A DNA stretch of 64,000 nt, taken from positions 1 to 64,000 of the forward strand of contig JAEUIH010000021.1 of the NCBI GenBank assembly GCA_016795105.1, read 5' to 3'. Position numbers and translations under genes: made by a program. Positions 118 through 62,151 of this stretch are shown here, in pieces. The stretch comes from Planctomyces sp. (GTDB lineage: Bacteria; Planctomycetota; Planctomycetia; Planctomycetales; Planctomycetaceae). The notes beneath the pieces were generated by a model. It was given only the letters and a program-made list of their open reading frames with translations. It was not told the DNA's origin and did no database searches. The first letter of the stretch is position 1. Each line of letters begins with the position of its first letter.

Positions 118-2697
118 CTATGGTGTCAGTGCTCTTCGATAGATGCGGGTTCCGTGGGCGATATAGAGTGTATTGAAGTCCGGACCGCCGAGAACACAGG
201 TTGTGAGAGGCTGAGTTGGGTCAATCTTTGGGAGAACTCCGCATGGGCGACCGGTTGGGTCGAAGATCTGCACTCCCAGCGCACTGGTAACATAGTATCG
301 CCCGATTCGATCCACGGACAAACCGTCGCCCAGCGAAGCGGGTTGATATGGCGGTGCTTCGTTGAAACGAAATTCTCCATTTGGATCAATCGGGAGTCTC
401 ATGGGCATGGTTGGCATTTTTGCGTCGAGTACTCCACCGGGGTTGATGCGGAACATCCAGGTGTGAGTCCCTCCGTAATCGGAGACGGCAAGTGTTCCTC
501 CATCGTTTGATACAGCAATTCCGTTCGGCCTTGTGATCCCTGTGTCTACCGGTGTGACGGACCCGCTGCCGGGGTCAATTCGCACGACCTGCTGAGCGCC
601 GGTGTCTGTGAACAGGATATAGCCGTCACGCGTGACCGCCAGATCATTGGGATTGACTCCTTCGGCGATGGATTTCACATCTCCCGTTTCGAGCTGAATC
701 GAAATGACTCGATTCTTTGAACCCTGACATCCATACAGAAGTTTTCCGTCCGGGCTGAATTCCAGACCGCTCACGGATTCATCCGCTATTTTTGTCTGCG
801 AGCCGTCTTTTGCGTTGATGCGATAAATGGCGGAAGCCTTCATGTCGCAGTAGTAAACGTCACCATTGCTGTCGACGCAGAGGCCATCGGCGAAACCAAG
901 CTCTTCTGCGGCGAGTTCCCAGGACTTTCCGGGGACAAGGAGTTTCAGCAGAGTCAGGTCACCACCCAGATCACCACTGGTATCCAGTTTGGCTTGATAG
1001 GTTTCTTTCCTCCAGAGCCATTTCAATGCGTCTGGAAACTGAGCTCCTCCGAAGTCGGCATTGTGTCCATAGCCCTCAGCCCAGTCAAACAGGACGTCAT
1101 AGCCCATGTACCTGAGCGCAGAGTCCATCTGCTGATTTGCGATGGGCCAGCTTCCAAACGGGTTGTCCAGGTCTCCGCTCGTATCGGCCAGATAGACTCG
1201 AACAGGCTTCGGTTCCGTCTTGCGAATCAGGCCCGGATAGGCATCACCTCCACGCAGGTTTGTGAAGCTGCCCACGCTTGAATATACCTTTCTGAACGCA
1301 TCTGGTCGTTCCCATGCAACTGTGAACGCACAGATCGCTCCGGAGCTCGAACCACCGATCGCTCTCATTTCCGGATCATCGGAAACATTGTACTGCTTTT
1401 TGACTTCAGGAACGATTTCTTCAAGAAGGAATCGAGCGTAGCGGTCTCCGAGGCTGTCATATTCGAAGCTGCGATTCGACGGTCGGTTGTCTCGCATTGG
1501 CGTCGACTGATCATGACCGGGGTTCAAAAACACCGCGATGGTTGGTGGCATGTCTCCACGTGCAATCAGATTGTCAAAGACGATCGGAACACGCCAGCGA
1601 CCAGTCAGATTACGCATACTGCTTCCGTCCTGAAAGATCATCAGTGCAGCAGGCTGATCTGGTCGATATTGAGCCGGAACATAGATTGCCCAGTCGCGGG
1701 TCGTTCCCTCGAAGACCTTTGACTGCCAGGGGTTCATCTCTTTGACCGTCCCATGGGGTACGTCGTCTCGAGGAATTGCGTCCGGATGAGGTTGCCATTC
1801 CGGTTTCGTTTGTGAACTGACGATGTTCGTGGATTCGGAGGCATCATTCCACAGCCATCGAAGCGCATCCGGCAGTACTTCCCCTGCCCACTTGCCACTA
1901 TGCCCTCCGTCAGTAAATTCAAGTCTGTAGTGATAGCCTGCAAACTGAAGAGCGGATGCAAGTTCCCGGTTTCCCAACGGCCAGTTGCCGTGCAGATTAT
2001 TCAGGTCTTCACGTCCCTCATGGAGGTACACCTTGATTGGCTTTGGCTCACCCTTTGTCCTGCGAACAAGGCCCGGGTACGCCCAGCCTCCCCGAATATT
2101 TGTATAGCTGCCGATGTGGCTCAGAACCTTTCCAAACTGATCCGGACGTTCCCATGCCACCGTGAAGGCACAGATTCCGCTTGACGAAATTCCACAAACC
2201 GCGCGATCGGCAGGATTCCTCGAGATATTGATTCCCTTGAGCGCCACTGGCAGAAATTCGTCAATCAGAAAGTTCGAGAACTGATTTCCCATGGAGTCAA
2301 ATTCGAATGAGCGATTGCTTCGGTCGCTGGCACCAGGCACCGTGGACTTGATCGTTCCCGGATTCACAAAGACTGCGACGGTCACCGGCATTTCCTGTTT
2401 GTGAATCAGGTTGTCGAATACCACAGGTACCCGAAATGAGCCGTCGACGTTTGCGTAACCGGAACCATCCATGAACACCATCAGGCGAGCCGGCTGCCCT
2501 GGCTCATACTGCGCTGGTACATACACGCTGTATTGCCGAGTTGTGCCTGGATAAACACTGCTCGAAGAGAATTCACCAGATGTGATCGTCCCCTGAGGCA
2601 CACCGGGCTGAGGCACTCGATCAGGATGCTCGTCTCCAATTGCCGGTTGAATAACAATTCCAAGTGCAATCAGCAGCAGAGAGTGAATTGGCTTCAT
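118..2697 (-). CDS. Secreted double esterase / SMP-30 beta-propeller fusion
   Basis: About 859 aa. An N-terminal signal peptide (MKPIHSLLLIALGIVIQ) is followed by two tandem esterase-D/enterochelin-esterase-like alpha/beta-hydrolase domains (about 25-290 and 300-565), each with a serine-nucleophile elbow (CGISSSG and GGSSSGA) and a C-terminal catalytic-His region (GGHSGKW, YGHNADF). The last ~270 residues are an SMP-30/gluconolactonase-like six-blade propeller (repeats such as DGLCVDSNGDVYY, PNGIAVSNDGG). I chose ATG 2697 rather than upstream candidates because it starts the signal peptide and has AGGAA eight bases upstream. The family hydrolyses esters of sugars or siderophores; here the substrate is unknown, probably a plant or algal polysaccharide ester, as inference. 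It stands alone, 178 bp after the PepSY gene. Confidence 0.85.
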   Translation of the reverse strand: MKPIHSLLLIALGIVIQPAIGDEHPDRVPQPGVPQGTITSGEFSSSSVYPGTTRQYSVYVPAQYEPGQPARLMVFMDGSGYANVDGSFRVPVVFDNLIHKQEMPVTVAVFVNPGTIKSTVPGASDRSNRSFEFDSMGNQFSNFLIDEFLPVALKGINISRNPADRAVCGISSSGICAFTVAWERPDQFGKVLSHIGSYTNIRGGWAYPGLVRRTKGEPKPIKVYLHEGREDLNNLHGNWPLGNRELASALQFAGYHYRLEFTDGGHSGKWAGEVLPDALRWLWNDASESTNIVSSQTKPEWQPHPDAIPRDDVPHGTVKEMNPWQSKVFEGTTRDWAIYVPAQYRPDQPAALMIFQDGSSMRNLTGRWRVPIVFDNLIARGDMPPTIAVFLNPGHDQSTPMRDNRPSNRSFEYDSLGDRYARFLLEEIVPEVKKQYNVSDDPEMRAIGGSSSGAICAFTVAWERPDAFRKVYSSVGSFTNLRGGDAYPGLIRKTEPKPVRVYLADTSGDLDNPFGSWPIANQQMDSALRYMGYDVLFDWAEGYGHNADFGGAQFPDALKWLWRKETYQAKLDTSGDLGGDLTLLKLLVPGKSWELAAEELGFADGLCVDSNGDVYYCDMKASAIYRINAKDGSQTKIADESVSGLEFSPDGKLLYGCQGSKNRVISIQLETGDVKSIAEGVNPNDLAVTRDGYILFTDTGAQQVVRIDPGSGSVTPVDTGITRPNGIAVSNDGGTLAVSDYGGTHTWMFRINPGGVLDAKMPTMPMRLPIDPNGEFRFNEAPPYQPASLGDGLSVDRIGRYYVTSALGVQIFDPTGRPCGVLPKIDPTQPLTTCVLGGPDFNTLYIAHGTRIYRRALTP

Positions 2698-2875
2698 GTG
2701 ATTCCTGAAGTGATGGTACAGGGCAAGGTGGCAGAGAATCTCACTGAACAGGAGATCATCGCTCGTCCGTGTCTCCATGGCAAGCCGCGAGCCCTGCAGT
2801 ACGACGTTTGTGGGCAATCAAATGTTTGCTTAGTGGACAATCATTTGTTGCATTGTCGTCTTCCGTGCTTTTGTA

Positions 2876-4311: not shown

Positions 4312-6684
4312 TCAGGGAGCGGCGGACTGAGCGACCTGTCTGAGAATTCTCACAATATCGCCAGCGGCAATTTCCGGGTGCAGGGCAGTATTTGCGATGC
4401 CGGATACAACTCGAGTGATGTTGTGATCTGCTTTGCCAGGTGTTGACCACGTCGACCGACTCGTCGCTGTCAGATAAACGGACATGGTGTGATGGCCACT
4501 GCCAGGGCGTTCACCAATGATGTGGAGGATGGTGCAGACGTCCGGTTCACCCGAGCCAAACAGAAGTTCTCCGATTCGGTAACCTGCGCGGACTCTGCCG
4601 GACTTTACCAGCAGGTTATCCGGAGCAACTTTGAACGGAGTCCCATCCAGGAGAGAGCGGATGATTGTTGTCAGGCGTTCCAATTGATCTTCATCCGAGA
4701 CCGCCAGAGCATTGAGCCCGTCCGAAATTACAATCTGGACGTTGTATTGATTGTTCTGAGTTTCACGCAGCTGCAGAACCCGATCCCTCGACTCCACCGA
4801 CAAAACTTCACCTGACGAAGGGTGAAGAATATAGTCTTCTCGGTCAACAGACTGAGAACTCAGAGCGATCACGTTGGGGATGGTGGCGACAAACTGTTCG
4901 GAAAGTTCTTCACGGATACATTTGCGCGCATCCTGATAGACGGCCTGAATCTGACTCGCCAGTTCCGGGGCATGTTCATCCGGAGACGCCCCATACCCTT
5001 CAGAAATAAAGACACCCCGCGCCCTGACTTCATTGATCTGCCTGTGTGCTTCAGCCAGTATTTCAGAATCGTCCCGGCTGTCACCTCGTCGCCGACAATA
5101 GTTCAGGTACACCCACGATGGATCTCCGAAGCGGTTCGTAGGCTGTCCATGTTCATCGATGACACCCAGCGACTGAAAGAAAGACCACATGACGTCGTTC
5201 ACTTTGCATCCGAACTTCTGTCGGATCCGGACATGGTCCTGGAATGATGTCGTCAGATACCCCAGCATCGGGTCGATTCGCGTCGGAAGCGCCATGAGGT
5301 AGGCAGGGCATGCGGGCATGATCTGATCAATACACCAGCCCAGGTCGTCAATTGTAACATCCATATGGAGAGTCGTGCAGATATCAAGACCAATGGTCAA
5401 ACCGTGAAGTTTTCCCATGACGATATCTTCAAGGCAGCATCGAACCAGTTGCTCGCGTGTCCTGAAGACTTCAGGCCCAATAAATCCGGCAACATCATTC
5501 AGATGAACCCACGGATGCCTCGCATCATCCGGTTTCCCGGCGGAAAGAAGTGCTTCGCCGACGATGTGCTTAAGTGCTCGTGCAAAGCCATATTTGCGGG
5601 ACTCAAATGTCACCATATCTACGCCGTGACCGTGACCATTGGTAAAGTCAGCACCCTGGCCTGTTTCGAAATATAGCCCAAAGCGGCCTGTGCGTTGTTG
5701 TGCATAGTCGGCCATCTTTTTGACCGAAATATCAAATGTTGCGTTTGCCGAATCGTTACCTGCGATACTCTGAAACCAGAACTCCGTGCTTCCAGGATTT
5801 CGTCGTTCGACTTCTGCCTGGATATCCACATGAGCAAGCACACAGTGCGGCATAGCAGTGTCGATACCAAACGTGATCAGCAGATCCTGAATGGTGCGTT
5901 CCACCGTTGTTACGATTTCAGGTTCACTGGAGACCGGGTTAGTGCCAACCAGCACATCGCCGACGCCATAAGAAAACGCGTTGAAGATTTGCCAGCGGAT
6001 ATCGTCCGGGTGATCTGTTGGTGAGTTCGGCTGAATTCGGGCACCCAGATATCCTTCACTTCCGATCCGGGAGTTTCCGAGGGGAACGAAGATTCTCGAG
6101 CCGATCTGCGTCAGTTCACGATTACTCAGAATGCGAACAACCGTCGCAATTACGTCGCTCGACAGCGACTTGCAAACTGTATGGATGTCGGAAACAGGGC
6201 CAGTCAGCAGGAATTCTGCAAGCCTGCCAAGAGTCCAGTGACCATCGATGGGTGTCCCGGCATCCTGATTCGGAACCGGCAGCAGATTGCTTGTCGCCAT
6301 GGCCGATTGTTCTTGTGACCGAACTGAGTTCAACGCGAACTCAAAAAGTTCGTCCTGATGTGGGGCATGAGCATCGATGTCTGACAGTCGCGTATTTCTG
6401 AGTAGTGAGCGGCTTAGATTTCGATGATCTTCATCGTGAGCAGCGACACCAACGATGGCATCCCCTTCCTTGAAGTCATTTGCAGCGCCCAGCATTTGTT
6501 GCCAAAGTTGCTGGTTCCACCCGCCGTGAACACGTTCGATCCAATGTACGAGGTCTTCACCCTCGAGTGCAGGAGTGAGTTGACGTTGAATTGCAGGAGA
6601 CGTGTTCGCCAGCGCTGTGTGAGAGACAATCGGACCGGCACAAAGAGCCGCCAGACTACTTTCCAGAAATCTGCGACGATGCAT
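4312..6684 (-). CDS. eutBC: Tat-exported ethanolamine ammonia-lyase, EutB-EutC fusion
   Basis: 790 aa. Ethanolamine ammonia-lyase is an adenosylcobalamin enzyme that converts ethanolamine to acetaldehyde and ammonia, normally with separate large (EutB) and small (EutC) subunits. Here residues ~35-570 are EutB (signature YFETGQGADFTNGHGHGVD around 338-356, including the active-site Glu at about 340) and ~585-785 are a short EutC (VQIVISDGLNA, SGRVRAGYRIGELL, HIIGERPGSG). The N-terminus MHRRRFLESSLAALCAGP...ALA-N fits a twin-arginine signal with an AxA cleavage site, which is unexpected for a B12 enzyme. A GGAG box sits 10 nt before the ATG. It follows the sigma/anti-sigma/Pro-rich gene set by 39 bp. 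No EutA reactivase, cobalamin adenosyltransferase or microcompartment shell gene is nearby. EutC is shorter than the roughly 295-residue enterobacterial subunit. Confidence 0.9.
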   Translation of the reverse strand: MHRRRFLESSLAALCAGPIVSHTALANTSPAIQRQLTPALEGEDLVHWIERVHGGWNQQLWQQMLGAANDFKEGDAIVGVAAHDEDHRNLSRSLLRNTRLSDIDAHAPHQDELFEFALNSVRSQEQSAMATSNLLPVPNQDAGTPIDGHWTLGRLAEFLLTGPVSDIHTVCKSLSSDVIATVVRILSNRELTQIGSRIFVPLGNSRIGSEGYLGARIQPNSPTDHPDDIRWQIFNAFSYGVGDVLVGTNPVSSEPEIVTTVERTIQDLLITFGIDTAMPHCVLAHVDIQAEVERRNPGSTEFWFQSIAGNDSANATFDISVKKMADYAQQRTGRFGLYFETGQGADFTNGHGHGVDMVTFESRKYGFARALKHIVGEALLSAGKPDDARHPWVHLNDVAGFIGPEVFRTREQLVRCCLEDIVMGKLHGLTIGLDICTTLHMDVTIDDLGWCIDQIMPACPAYLMALPTRIDPMLGYLTTSFQDHVRIRQKFGCKVNDVMWSFFQSLGVIDEHGQPTNRFGDPSWVYLNYCRRRGDSRDDSEILAEAHRQINEVRARGVFISEGYGASPDEHAPELASQIQAVYQDARKCIREELSEQFVATIPNVIALSSQSVDREDYILHPSSGEVLSVESRDRVLQLRETQNNQYNVQIVISDGLNALAVSDEDQLERLTTIIRSLLDGTPFKVAPDNLLVKSGRVRAGYRIGELLFGSGEPDVCTILHIIGERPGSGHHTMSVYLTATSRSTWSTPGKADHNITRVVSGIANTALHPEIAAGDIVRILRQVAQSAAP

Positions 6685-6723
6685 GTCGATTGCTCCATGA
6701 TTCAGAGTTGCTGCGACAAGGAT

Positions 6724-7965
6724 TCAGAATTCCCGATCAGGCGGCCCGCCTGTATCACGTCGATCTTCTCGATCCGGACGCGGACCTGAAAACGGTACAC
6801 CATCCGGAGGCGGACCTGGTGGTGGGCCTTGCGGCGGACCGTTTGGGGATGGGAGAAGTCGACGGAAGAGAACAGGTACGCTGGTTTCGTAGACGTTTCG
6901 CATCTGCAGCAGTCGCCCGGCAGGCGTCGATGGATTCCCATGATTCGTGGCAACAGACTGTTCGAGTGCAGCCTGCGCGGCTTCTGGAGGCATCGTCATG
7001 AGCGCTTTTCGATCGCTGCGGTTTTCGACTTCCGAAAATGCATTGATGAGCCGATCTTCACTGGTTTCTACTGTATCCGCAAGACGACCACCCAGATCAA
7101 TAATCGCCTGGTCGATCACACTGACAGCACATAACGCCTGCATGACCCGTGCAAATCGCTGAGCAGCCTCGCCTGGTCGGCTGTCTGTGTCCTGAGCTTC
7201 GGTGAGTCGCACGAATTGTGATCGCCACTCGGAATCCGGAACGTCCTTTTTAAGTGTTTCAACGAAGGGGGCTAATTTTCGCAGAGCATCATCAGGACGA
7301 GTGGCATCTCTGACCTGTTGCATCAGGAGCAAAGACTTGAAAAGCGCGCGTTCTGATTCTCCACTGCATGCGGCAAGTTCTTCCTGATCAGCACCAGAAA
7401 GAGCTGCATCCGGAAATGACTGATTGATTAAATCCAGGTACTCGCTCGTGCTCAACACCAAATGCGGCAGGCGCCCGGAAGACTGTTCCTCGGGATCAGA
7501 CTCAGACAGTGTTCTCGGCGAAGATCGTTGTCTGGCAAGCCTTCGCATGCTGAATACGACAATGATCTTTTCTGCCGCCTGTCGGTCGTCAAACATGCGA
7601 CTGCTGATTGTCAGCGCATCCCCCTGCTGGACGGCGCTGCTCAGCTCCAGCCAGTCTGATGTGGTCAGTGAATTCCACCACGCTCGAAACTCTGTCAATC
7701 TCCTTCGGACCTCATCATCCTGCTGCACCTCTGCATGGATCTTGAGAATCTGTTGTTGCCGATCCGCTGTCAGCTTTGAAAAGTCTTTATGGGCTTCGAG
7801 TACACTCTGTTGTGTCTCGGATGGAAGCGATTCGAAATCTGCCATCGCAGAGCGAAGTGCACTTCTTGATGAGCTTTCCGCTCCGCACACAAGCCAAACA
7901 ATCATGCACCCGAGGGCGGCCAGTCCGGGAGACAGGAGAAATTCGAATCTTCGGAGCATCTTCAT
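6724..7965 (-). CDS. Membrane-anchored Pro-rich protein of sigma operon
   Basis: 413 aa with no family I can name. It opens with a membrane anchor or signal (LAALGCMIVWLVCG), continues as a charged, mostly helical domain with repeated 'ADRQQQILKIHAEVQQ'-like text that resembles DUF3106-type proteins, and ends in a Pro/Gly-rich tail (PPQGPPPGPPPDGVP) with acidic-basic RPDREDRRD. The ATG overlaps the stop of the anti-sigma gene (ATGA, 7962-7965), so it is translationally coupled to it. This places it as a third component of the ECF sigma system, probably a periplasmic sensor or modulator; that role is inferred from context only. Confidence 0.75.
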   Translation of the reverse strand: MKMLRRFEFLLSPGLAALGCMIVWLVCGAESSSRSALRSAMADFESLPSETQQSVLEAHKDFSKLTADRQQQILKIHAEVQQDDEVRRRLTEFRAWWNSLTTSDWLELSSAVQQGDALTISSRMFDDRQAAEKIIVVFSMRRLARQRSSPRTLSESDPEEQSSGRLPHLVLSTSEYLDLINQSFPDAALSGADQEELAACSGESERALFKSLLLMQQVRDATRPDDALRKLAPFVETLKKDVPDSEWRSQFVRLTEAQDTDSRPGEAAQRFARVMQALCAVSVIDQAIIDLGGRLADTVETSEDRLINAFSEVENRSDRKALMTMPPEAAQAALEQSVATNHGNPSTPAGRLLQMRNVYETSVPVLFRRLLPSPNGPPQGPPPGPPPDGVPFSGPRPDREDRRDTGGPPDREF

Positions 7966-8543
7966 GGATTCTGCTCCGTCTTCGAGGAGGGTGTTAACGT
8001 GCCTGGAACTGTCGGGACATTTAGTTCCTCAGGGAACTTAATGTCTCGCAGAAACTTTGTGTCAGGGATTAGATGATATTGATAGTAATTCTGAAACATG
8101 TCCAGATTCTGAAGGATTCTGGCGTCTACGGAATTCTGCTGTCGGTCCGCGTTCCATTGCCCGGCTGTCAGTCCGACATAGCCAGCACCAAGTCCTGCGG
8201 TCAGCCAGATCATCTGTCGAAGAAGGAACTTCGTTAGCGAGTCCGTTTTTTTTGAAATGCCGGATTCATCTTCGTCCACCCCGTCGGTATCCGTGGTGGC
8301 AGTCATCGAGGACAATGTCTTTTGAGTAAACTCGCGGCTGGCACTGACTTCGCCAAGTGAATCAAGCAATTGCCATGTTCGATCGAAATCTTCAGCCTGC
8401 TTTCGGAGCGGTGTGTCTGTTACAAGGCGACGTTCAATGACATCTGCTTCGACATCGCTGAGTTCCCCGTCGAGATATGCAACGAGGTCATCAAGCTGAA
8501 TCGCGAGTGGGTCGGCGCCTGATTTTTGAGGTTCCTGTGACAT
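7962..8543 (-). CDS. Putative transmembrane anti-sigma factor
   Basis: 193 aa. The N-terminal cytoplasmic part (DDLVAYLDGELSDVEADVIERRL) has the look of the anti-sigma (zf-HC2/ASD-like) fold common in planctomycetes, without the zinc-binding HxxxCxxC. A single membrane helix follows at about 113-128 (IWLTAGLGAGYVGLTAG), then a short periplasmic tail. It begins 3 bp after the stop of the ECF sigma gene and its stop overlaps the next ATG. Gene order and topology support a membrane-bound inhibitor of the adjacent sigma factor. The similarity is weak, so the assignment rests mainly on context. Confidence 0.7.
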   Translation of the reverse strand: MSQEPQKSGADPLAIQLDDLVAYLDGELSDVEADVIERRLVTDTPLRKQAEDFDRTWQLLDSLGEVSASREFTQKTLSSMTATTDTDGVDEDESGISKKTDSLTKFLLRQMIWLTAGLGAGYVGLTAGQWNADRQQNSVDARILQNLDMFQNYYQYHLIPDTKFLRDIKFPEELNVPTVPGTLTPSSKTEQNP

Positions 8544-8546
8544 GCC

Positions 8547-9152
8547 TTAAAGGTATCGTTCGAGAGTTTCACGAAGCTTGCTGCGTGCTCGGGAAAGGAG
8601 TGACTTAACTGCCACTGTACCCAAACCCATCACATCACCGATCTCTTCGTAACTCATGCCTTCAAATTTATGAAGCAGAACGGCTGTCTTTTGACGTTCT
8701 CCAAGTTCGTCGAGCGCATTCCTGACGACGTCCTGCATTTCTAAGGAATCAAGCTGTCTGGTGGGCATAAGTGCCGATTTTTCTGCCAGGATTTCGCCCT
8801 GTGGTCGAAAATCGTAGGCATCCGAACCCGGCGCAAGCGGGATTTCTCGCCGACGAATCGATCCACGCATTTGGTTGCTGGCGAGATTATGGGCAATTCG
8901 GAACAACCAGGTCGAGAATCGGGCCTTTGGTTCGTAGCGGTCACGAGAACGATAGACTCTTAGAAAGACTTCCTGTGCAAGGTCTTCCGCGGAGGTGCGA
9001 TCGTGGAGCAGGTGGAAGAAAAAACCGACCATCCGGTCCTGGTATTGTGCGACCAACTGTTCAAACGCTGCATGATCCCCGTTAACAACCCGCAGCATTA
9101 ACTGCACATCGGGGTCCGATAGGTATTGGTTATTGAGTGACTGGGAAACCAA
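8547..9152 (-). CDS. ECF RNA polymerase sigma factor
   Basis: 201 aa. Region 2 (DRMVGFFFHLLHDRTSAEDLAQEVFLRVYRS, with STWLFRIAHNLA for -10 recognition) and region 4 (LGERQKTAVLLHKFEGMSYEEIGDVMGLG..AVKSLLSRARSKLRE) are complete and typical of RpoE-like ECF factors. The chosen start is TTG 9152 preceded by GAGGGAG with a good spacing; the first ATG would cut into region 2. It heads an operon with the anti-sigma and Pro-rich genes and, 39 bp further, the EutBC fusion. A GGAACTT box on this strand at 9191-9197 resembles an ECF -35 element and hints at autoregulation, but I cannot see a convincing -10. Confidence 0.92.
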   Translation of the reverse strand: MVSQSLNNQYLSDPDVQLMLRVVNGDHAAFEQLVAQYQDRMVGFFFHLLHDRTSAEDLAQEVFLRVYRSRDRYEPKARFSTWLFRIAHNLASNQMRGSIRRREIPLAPGSDAYDFRPQGEILAEKSALMPTRQLDSLEMQDVVRNALDELGERQKTAVLLHKFEGMSYEEIGDVMGLGTVAVKSLLSRARSKLRETLERYL

Positions 9153-60696: not shown

Positions 60697-62151
60697 ATGC
60701 AGACGAGTTCCTCACACGGGCCAGCATCCCGGAATAGATGTACTCATTTTCCGGATCGTCGGTCCTTTGTTGTCGCTTCGACTGCGGGCATCGCGGGTTT
60801 CTCGTTTGGCTCAGGCATGGCTCAGGCTGCCGCAGAGGTTCCACAACCTTCAAAGGCAAAAGCTCAGTCGACAATCCTGTTCTTTTTGAGCGGCGGTGCG
60901 TCACATCTTGATATGTGGGATATGAAGCCGAACGCTCCGCTGGAATACCGGGGGCCATTCAGGCCAATTGCCACTTCATCACCCGGAGTCATGCTCAGCG
61001 AACACCTTCCGATGCTGGCTCGGCAGGCTCACCATCTGGCGCTGGTCAATTCCATAGGAGCGTCTGTCAGCACGAACGACCATCATGCCGGGTACTATTA
61101 CAATCTCACCGGCCATGTTCCTGATCCAACGTTTCTGCAGCTTGGCAATAGTCGGACTCCCTATGCAGACGACTGGCCGTTTATGGGAGCGGTTGTTGGA
61201 TCGCGTCGAGCCCCGCATTCACAGCTGACCAATGCGATTACTCTGCCGCACATGGAAGGCGCTCCGGCATATACTCGCCCTGGACAGTTCTCTGCGAGAC
61301 TTGGCGTTGAATATGACCCGCTCTATATCAACGGTTCGCTTGATGCCCCACTTCGGTTTCAGGCCCCGGCATTGGCACTTGAAGGTGACGTCACAACGGA
61401 TCGACTCAATCACCGACGGGATTTGTTGCAGCATCTTGACTCGGCCCGAAGACTGTTCGACGAACGCGGACGCCTCACAACATGGAATCAACAGCAGGAA
61501 CGTGCACTGTCCCTGTTAATGTCGCCACGTACAACGGCCGCGTTTCAGGTCGCAGATGAACCTGAGTCTGTCCGAGCACGGTATGGGCATGGAATCAACG
61601 GGACAAGTCTGCTGTTGGCTCGCCGTCTCGTTGAAGCCGGAGTTCCGTTCATTACAGTCTTCTGGAAGGGCGACGAAAAGGCGGCCGAACTTCGCAAGTG
61701 TGCAAGCGGCGGTGGCTGGGATACTCATGGAAATAACTTTGGCTGTCTGAAAGACGATTTACTTCCACAGTTCGATCGAGGATTCTCTGCGCTGATCGAA
61801 GATCTCTCGGATCGAGGGTTGCTGGAACAGACACTGTTGATGGTCACCAGCGAAATGGGGCGGAAGCCAAAGATCGGCGATCCTCGGTCAGGCGGCCCAT
61901 CAGGCGCCGGACGCGACCACTGGACTCACTGTCTTACCGATGTCCTCGCCGGAGGCGGAATCCTGGGAGGACAGACGTTTGGCTCGAGCGATCGATACGG
62001 TGAGTATCCTCAGAACAAACCCGTGACGCCGGCAGACGTGACGAAGACTGTCTATCACTTGATGGGGATCGACAATCTTCAGGCGTTCGACAGCCAAAAT
62101 CGCCCTTACAATTTGCTCGAACAGGGAACTCCAATCTCAGATCTTTTGTGA
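60697..62151 (+). CDS. DUF1501 Tat-exported protein
   Basis: 484 aa. A twin-arginine signal (RRSFVVASTAGIAGF) precedes a DUF1501 domain of the alkaline-phosphatase/sulfatase superfamily: ILFFLSGGASHLDMWDMKPNAP, FRPIATSSPGVMLSEHLP, DHHAGYYYNLTGH, GGWDTHGNNF, TSEMGRKPKI, GRDHWTHCLTDVLAGGG. These proteins are a planctomycete hallmark; biochemistry unknown, likely periplasmic. Co-transcribed with the rhamnose importer (42 bp after rhaS), which hints at action on rhamnose-containing polymers. GAGG precedes the ATG. The 69-bp tandem array begins just after its stop. Confidence 0.93.
   Translation: MQTSSSHGPASRNRCTHFPDRRSFVVASTAGIAGFSFGSGMAQAAAEVPQPSKAKAQSTILFFLSGGASHLDMWDMKPNAPLEYRGPFRPIATSSPGVMLSEHLPMLARQAHHLALVNSIGASVSTNDHHAGYYYNLTGHVPDPTFLQLGNSRTPYADDWPFMGAVVGSRRAPHSQLTNAITLPHMEGAPAYTRPGQFSARLGVEYDPLYINGSLDAPLRFQAPALALEGDVTTDRLNHRRDLLQHLDSARRLFDERGRLTTWNQQQERALSLLMSPRTTAAFQVADEPESVRARYGHGINGTSLLLARRLVEAGVPFITVFWKGDEKAAELRKCASGGGWDTHGNNFGCLKDDLLPQFDRGFSALIEDLSDRGLLEQTLLMVTSEMGRKPKIGDPRSGGPSGAGRDHWTHCLTDVLAGGGILGGQTFGSSDRYGEYPQNKPVTPADVTKTVYHLMGIDNLQAFDSQNRPYNLLEQGTPISDLL

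Follow-up and report, generated by a model that had tools for sequence, protein, structure and literature searches.

Does an adenosylcobalamin-dependent ethanolamine ammonia-lyase work outside the cytoplasm in planctomycetes? The question is raised by a single gene in the 64,000-nucleotide stretch of Planctomyces sp. DNA that we analysed (hereafter, the window), in which both subunits of the enzyme are joined behind an N-terminus of twin-arginine translocation (Tat) type. Adenosylcobalamin radical enzymes are considered cytoplasmic, since they require a protected cofactor, ATP-driven reactivation and adenosylation, and we know of none that works outside the cytoplasm. The canonical ethanolamine ammonia-lyase is a large oligomer, and in E. 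coli EutBC the adenosylcobalamin sits between EutB and EutC. The Tat pathway transports folded proteins; separate subunits would therefore have to travel together, while a fusion needs one signal.

The fused eutBC gene

The gene lies on the minus strand (4312..6684, stop codon included) and encodes a protein of 790 aa. One chain holds a EutB domain (residues 62-517; 5134..6501, minus strand; PF06751, 1.5e-123) with a fold close to 3abo_A and 2qez, and a EutC domain (residues 578-786; 4327..4953, minus strand; PF05985, 3.9e-31) with a fold close to 3abo_B. The closest solved proteins were EutB of E. coli and Listeria, and E. coli EutC. Both domains passed the curated Pfam thresholds (413 bits for PF06751, cut-off 25; 108.6 bits for PF05985, cut-off 25.8) and missed the cut-offs of the NCBIfam EutB subfamily and EutC equivalog models (534.9 of 554 bits and 84.4 of 230 bits, respectively). 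Judged by these profiles, the protein belongs to a divergent subfamily and not to the curated NCBIfam equivalog. No other EutB was detected in the genome, which spans 8.9 Mb and is 99.96% complete.

The EutC match begins at Pfam position 31, or near residue 97 if counted on the 5ysn light chain, which has 295 residues. Where the N-terminal part of EutC would be, the protein has a linker some 60 residues long (518-577; 4954..5133, minus strand; placed by the Pfam bounds and the structure model). The original prediction of a EutB-EutC fusion with a shortened EutC thus agrees with the domain content on both points. Alignment of signal-bearing with canonical proteins also revealed a subfamily-specific insertion (residues 373-390; 5515..5568, minus strand), which was found in 59 of the 60 signal-bearing proteins and in none of the 20 canonical ones.

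The N-terminus of the fused protein reads MHRRRFLESSLAALCAGPIVSHTALA. Residues 1-26 (6607..6684, minus strand) form a predicted signal peptide, with the twin-arginine motif RRRFL at residues 3-7 (6664..6678, minus strand) and A-L-A at residues 24-26, after which (A26) the signal is probably cleaved. A probable ribosome binding site, GGAG (6693..6696, minus strand), lies 8 nt 5' of the ATG, and the reading frame continues 5' of the ATG for 13 in-frame codons before a stop. No ATG, GTG or TTG occurs in frame between residues 1 and 64, and residue 64, the next possible start of this kind, is already inside the conserved EutB domain; a downstream start, which the original prediction had named as an outcome that would refute export, therefore cannot strip the leader here, barring a rarer start codon.

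We shuffled residues 2-60 with their composition kept, and searched for a twin-arginine motif together with an uncharged stretch of at least 13 residues, such as the window protein has. This combination arose in 0.75% of the draws, and motifs of this kind in 0.3-0.75%, a frequency that alone is not decisive. Among the 40 ORFs of the window, it was present in two: the fused EutBC and one DUF1501-type gene (60697-62151, plus strand; name read from the sequence), whose Tat-type N-terminus is PDRRSFVVASTAGIAGFSFGSG. This protein, one of the other Tat-type proteins of planctomycetes, shares with the fused EutBC the same kind of twin-arginine leader, in the same genome, but has a different fold and no B12.

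Conservation of the leader among relatives

Of the 170 genomes that the family comprises here, 72 contain a relative of the fused protein (about 55-67% identity), in some cases as a fragment; one further genome with a relative belongs to a neighbouring family. About 60 relative loci were retrieved and 60 rows with an intact 5' end were counted, two of which (L054 and L112) represent one gene taken from different sources. With the start of each relative chosen by us as the nearest ATG, GTG or TTG 5' of the arginine pair, RR was found in 60 out of 60 and RRxF in 58, while the TatP-type pattern RR.[FGAVML][LITMVF] was matched by 59; no relative lacking the twin arginines, the other outcome that would have spoken against the signal, was found among these 60. 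The pair was encoded by 20 different codon pairs, and mean pairwise identity was 14-16% in the rest of the leader, 70% in EutB and 56% in EutC. The uncharged hydrophobic stretch following RR had a median length of 17 residues and a minimum of 12 (five proteins). A loose A-x-A-like match was seen in most relatives, though not in all. On these alignments, an RR kept within a hypervariable leader is the pattern of a signal held by selection, and this conservation is stronger evidence for the leader than the shuffle statistics. The succession of RRRFL, hydrophobic stretch and ALA, on which the idea of a Tat substrate was built, is hence both visible in the window protein and, in its twin arginines, common to its intact relatives. 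Finally, 11 of the carriers are single-contig genomes, so that the leader is no artefact of metagenome assembly; their contiguity suggests cultured strains.

No leader was found in any canonical EutB examined, whether separate or belonging to a second fused clade. L113 and L114, two relatives (52% identical) that belong to different families within the phylum, are also fused and have no leader, although they carry the substitutions of the subfamily and a shorter form of the insertion. The signal is thus a separable, lineage-specific addition, and the fusion may have preceded it. In the phylogenetic tree, a long branch with 100/100 support separates the subfamily from canonical EutB, and the signal-bearing set forms one side of a weakly supported branch (79/20); with this support, a single gain of the signal is favoured by the tree, but not shown.

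A second EutB-EutC fusion of planctomycetes (L119-L126) has, like the window protein, a single chain with EutB first, but it is only 28-29% identical, has no signal and adjoins EutA in several genomes. The fusion therefore either has two origins or was lost between the two clades.

Active site and predicted structure

We compared the subfamily with the residues that line the active site in the structure of E. coli EutB. The counterparts of R160, Q162, N193, S247, E287, V326, F329, D362, M392 and L402 were invariant in 60 out of 60 signal-bearing proteins, and the EutC motifs GRV and GERPG were retained. Two substitutions were also recorded: E257 of E. coli EutB corresponds to T in all 60 proteins (T316 in the window protein), and S292, near the active site, corresponds to A345 in the window protein.

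The AlphaFold2 model of the chain had a mean pLDDT of 90 and a pTM of 0.90; the predicted signal peptide was of low confidence, with most of the first 30 residues below 50. In Foldseek searches, EutB and EutC structures ranked first, followed by diol and glycerol dehydratases; the best PDB matches were 3abo_A and, for the EutC half, 7xrm_B and 3abo_B. Aligned by structure, the fused protein is about 31% identical to E. coli EutB. The fused form thus shares with the E. coli (3abo) and Listeria (2qez) EutBC the EutB TIM-barrel, the EutC fold, the ten active-site residues and the GRV/GERPG motifs, and it differs from them in its single chain, the Tat-type signal, the insertion at 373-390, the change of E257 to T, and the lack of a EutA or permease partner. 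Cysteine content and pI differed too little between signal-bearing proteins and canonical EutB to argue for or against a periplasmic life.

Partner genes and gene neighbourhood

The genome of the window encodes TatC (PF00902, 1.3e-57) and a PduO-type adenosyltransferase. CobS was not detected in it, and the organism therefore probably relies on imported or salvaged B12. EutA was absent from this genome, as had been predicted. Across the 170 genomes of the family, which are phylogenetically non-independent and were counted with kinship ignored, EutA was above the cut-off in nine, and among carriers only in two (G485 and G520), both of which also have a canonical second fused copy; an ethanolamine permease was above the curated cut-off in 21, with 0 of the 72 carriers against 21 of the 98 other genomes (Fisher p 5e-6); and canonical EutB was nearly exclusive with the fused form (2 of the 72 carriers against 38 of the 98 others). 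Ethanolamine diffuses across membranes at neutral pH (PMC5821096); given this and the relatedness of the genomes, the absence of a permease lends weak, modest support to export.

No cobalamin riboswitch was found at the gathering threshold in the window and nine relatives, where the search returned only tRNAs. No shell genes were found at the locus, and none recurred beside eutBC in relatives. Two adjacent BMC-H shell genes (L145 and L146) lie on another contig (C111) of the window genome, so that the predicted lack of a microcompartment holds for the locus and not for the genome; these genes probably serve a microcompartment of the organism that has no connection with the fused eutBC.

We also looked for a neighbour gene whose conservation might hint at function, but clustering around 84 loci gave lineage-local neighbours only, and no neighbour gene was conserved across genera. 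The DUF1501/PSD1 pairs and the SDR found beside eutBC in different genera shared only about 29-47% identity between genera, too little for close orthologues. Directly upstream of eutBC in the window (6724-9152, minus strand) are genes for an ECF sigma factor, a probable anti-sigma factor and a DUF3106-like protein. This operon has the same order in one congener (L064) and is common to that congener only; the arrangement suggests sigma-factor control of eutBC in the genus of the window. In five loci of one genus (L065, L067, L070, L077 and L082), an IclR-type regulator, a PSD1-type gene and a Tat-type DUF1501 gene, all named by reading the sequence, are found upstream of eutBC. Elsewhere in the window (118-2817, minus strand), a protein of 899 aa combines two esterase-like stretches with a following SMP-30/gluconolactonase-like domain. 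A scan of the collection for named relatives gave three loci only.

Discussion

The explanation that we favour, and regard as fairly probable from the sequences, is that the fused EutBC is a Tat-exported ethanolamine ammonia-lyase, the two halves of its B12 site being carried across the membrane in a single polypeptide. Folding and cofactor uptake would take place in the cytoplasm, and the loaded protein would then pass through Tat and shed its signal peptide. Ethanolamine, for example from phosphatidylethanolamine turnover, would be converted outside the cytoplasm to acetaldehyde and ammonia, which would diffuse inward, so that an ethanolamine permease would be unneeded. The wider proposal, that the adenosylcobalamin radical lyases of an entire subfamily do their work extracytoplasmically without an ATP-driven reactivase, their subunits having been fused for Tat export, seems to us evenly balanced between true and false.

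Several points stand against export. A large oligomer, EutA, fresh adenosylcobalamin and ATP are not expected in the periplasm, and it looks wasteful for an organism that probably imports B12 to export a B12 enzyme. The canonical enzyme is inactivated in catalysis, and its reactivation needs EutA, fresh adenosylcobalamin and ATP (PMC5821096); how reactivation would proceed without EutA and ATP is the unexplained point of an exported lyase. The change at T316 and the lack of a neighbour shared across genera count against it as well.

Alternatively, the protein may be exported without being a turnover ethanolamine lyase: it may act on another amino alcohol, bind or scavenge cobamides in the periplasm, or be spent after a few turnovers for want of reactivation. 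We consider this the less probable course, though a serious one: the carriers have no EutA except for the two with a second EutB copy, B12 dependence is likely, and the subfamily has its insertion and its substitutions near the active site (S292 to A345, E257 to T316), but all ten E. coli active-site residues compared are invariant, and a mere binding protein could dispense with the catalytic E340 and D434. If the leader were instead an inner-membrane tether, or were left unprocessed, with the catalytic part working as an ordinary ethanolamine ammonia-lyase in the cytoplasm, the enzyme could easily be supplied with cofactor and repaired where necessary, and several leaders (e.g. that of L065) have no clear A-x-A site. 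A plain tether would have no use for RR and for F at +3, both retained in a leader that is otherwise hypervariable, and the canonical cytoplasmic EutB of the same family has no leader, which makes this arrangement improbable.

The N-terminus might also be a microcompartment targeting peptide, such as Salmonella EutC bears, in a genome that does have BMC shell genes; those genes are on another contig with none recurrent beside eutBC in relatives, and the leader shows a Tat pattern with invariant RR rather than an amphipathic helix, so we give this very little credence. Even less is given to a chance motif or a wrong start codon: the motif does arise in a small fraction of shuffled sequences, but chance or a misplaced start would not be expected to yield its conservation throughout the intact relatives, nor does the gene offer an alternative start ahead of the EutB domain.

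Tat export of an ethanolamine ammonia-lyase would have a partial precedent. The original prediction had called a periplasmic B12 lyase unprecedented, which is too broad, since the reductive dehalogenases are corrinoid enzymes with well-documented Tat export (PMC10624902); as far as we know, it stands only for an adenosylcobalamin radical lyase, which would be new. Like the fused EutBC as we read it, the respiratory reductive dehalogenase PceA is a corrinoid enzyme moved by Tat after folding (PMC10624902), but it has an unrelated fold, iron-sulphur clusters, no adenosylcobalamin radical chemistry, and PceB and PceT as partners. Full-text literature searches, whose coverage left out most subscription papers, returned no description of an exported or Tat-type EutBC.

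As several of the carriers, being single-contig genomes, are apparently cultured, the claim of export should be directly testable. If true, an exported subfamily would shift adenosylcobalamin radical chemistry to the periplasm and would raise the question of how an enzyme that inactivates itself can persist in the absence of EutA. It would also make the ethanolamine of lipids usable by these planctomycetes without import and without acetaldehyde filling the cytosol.
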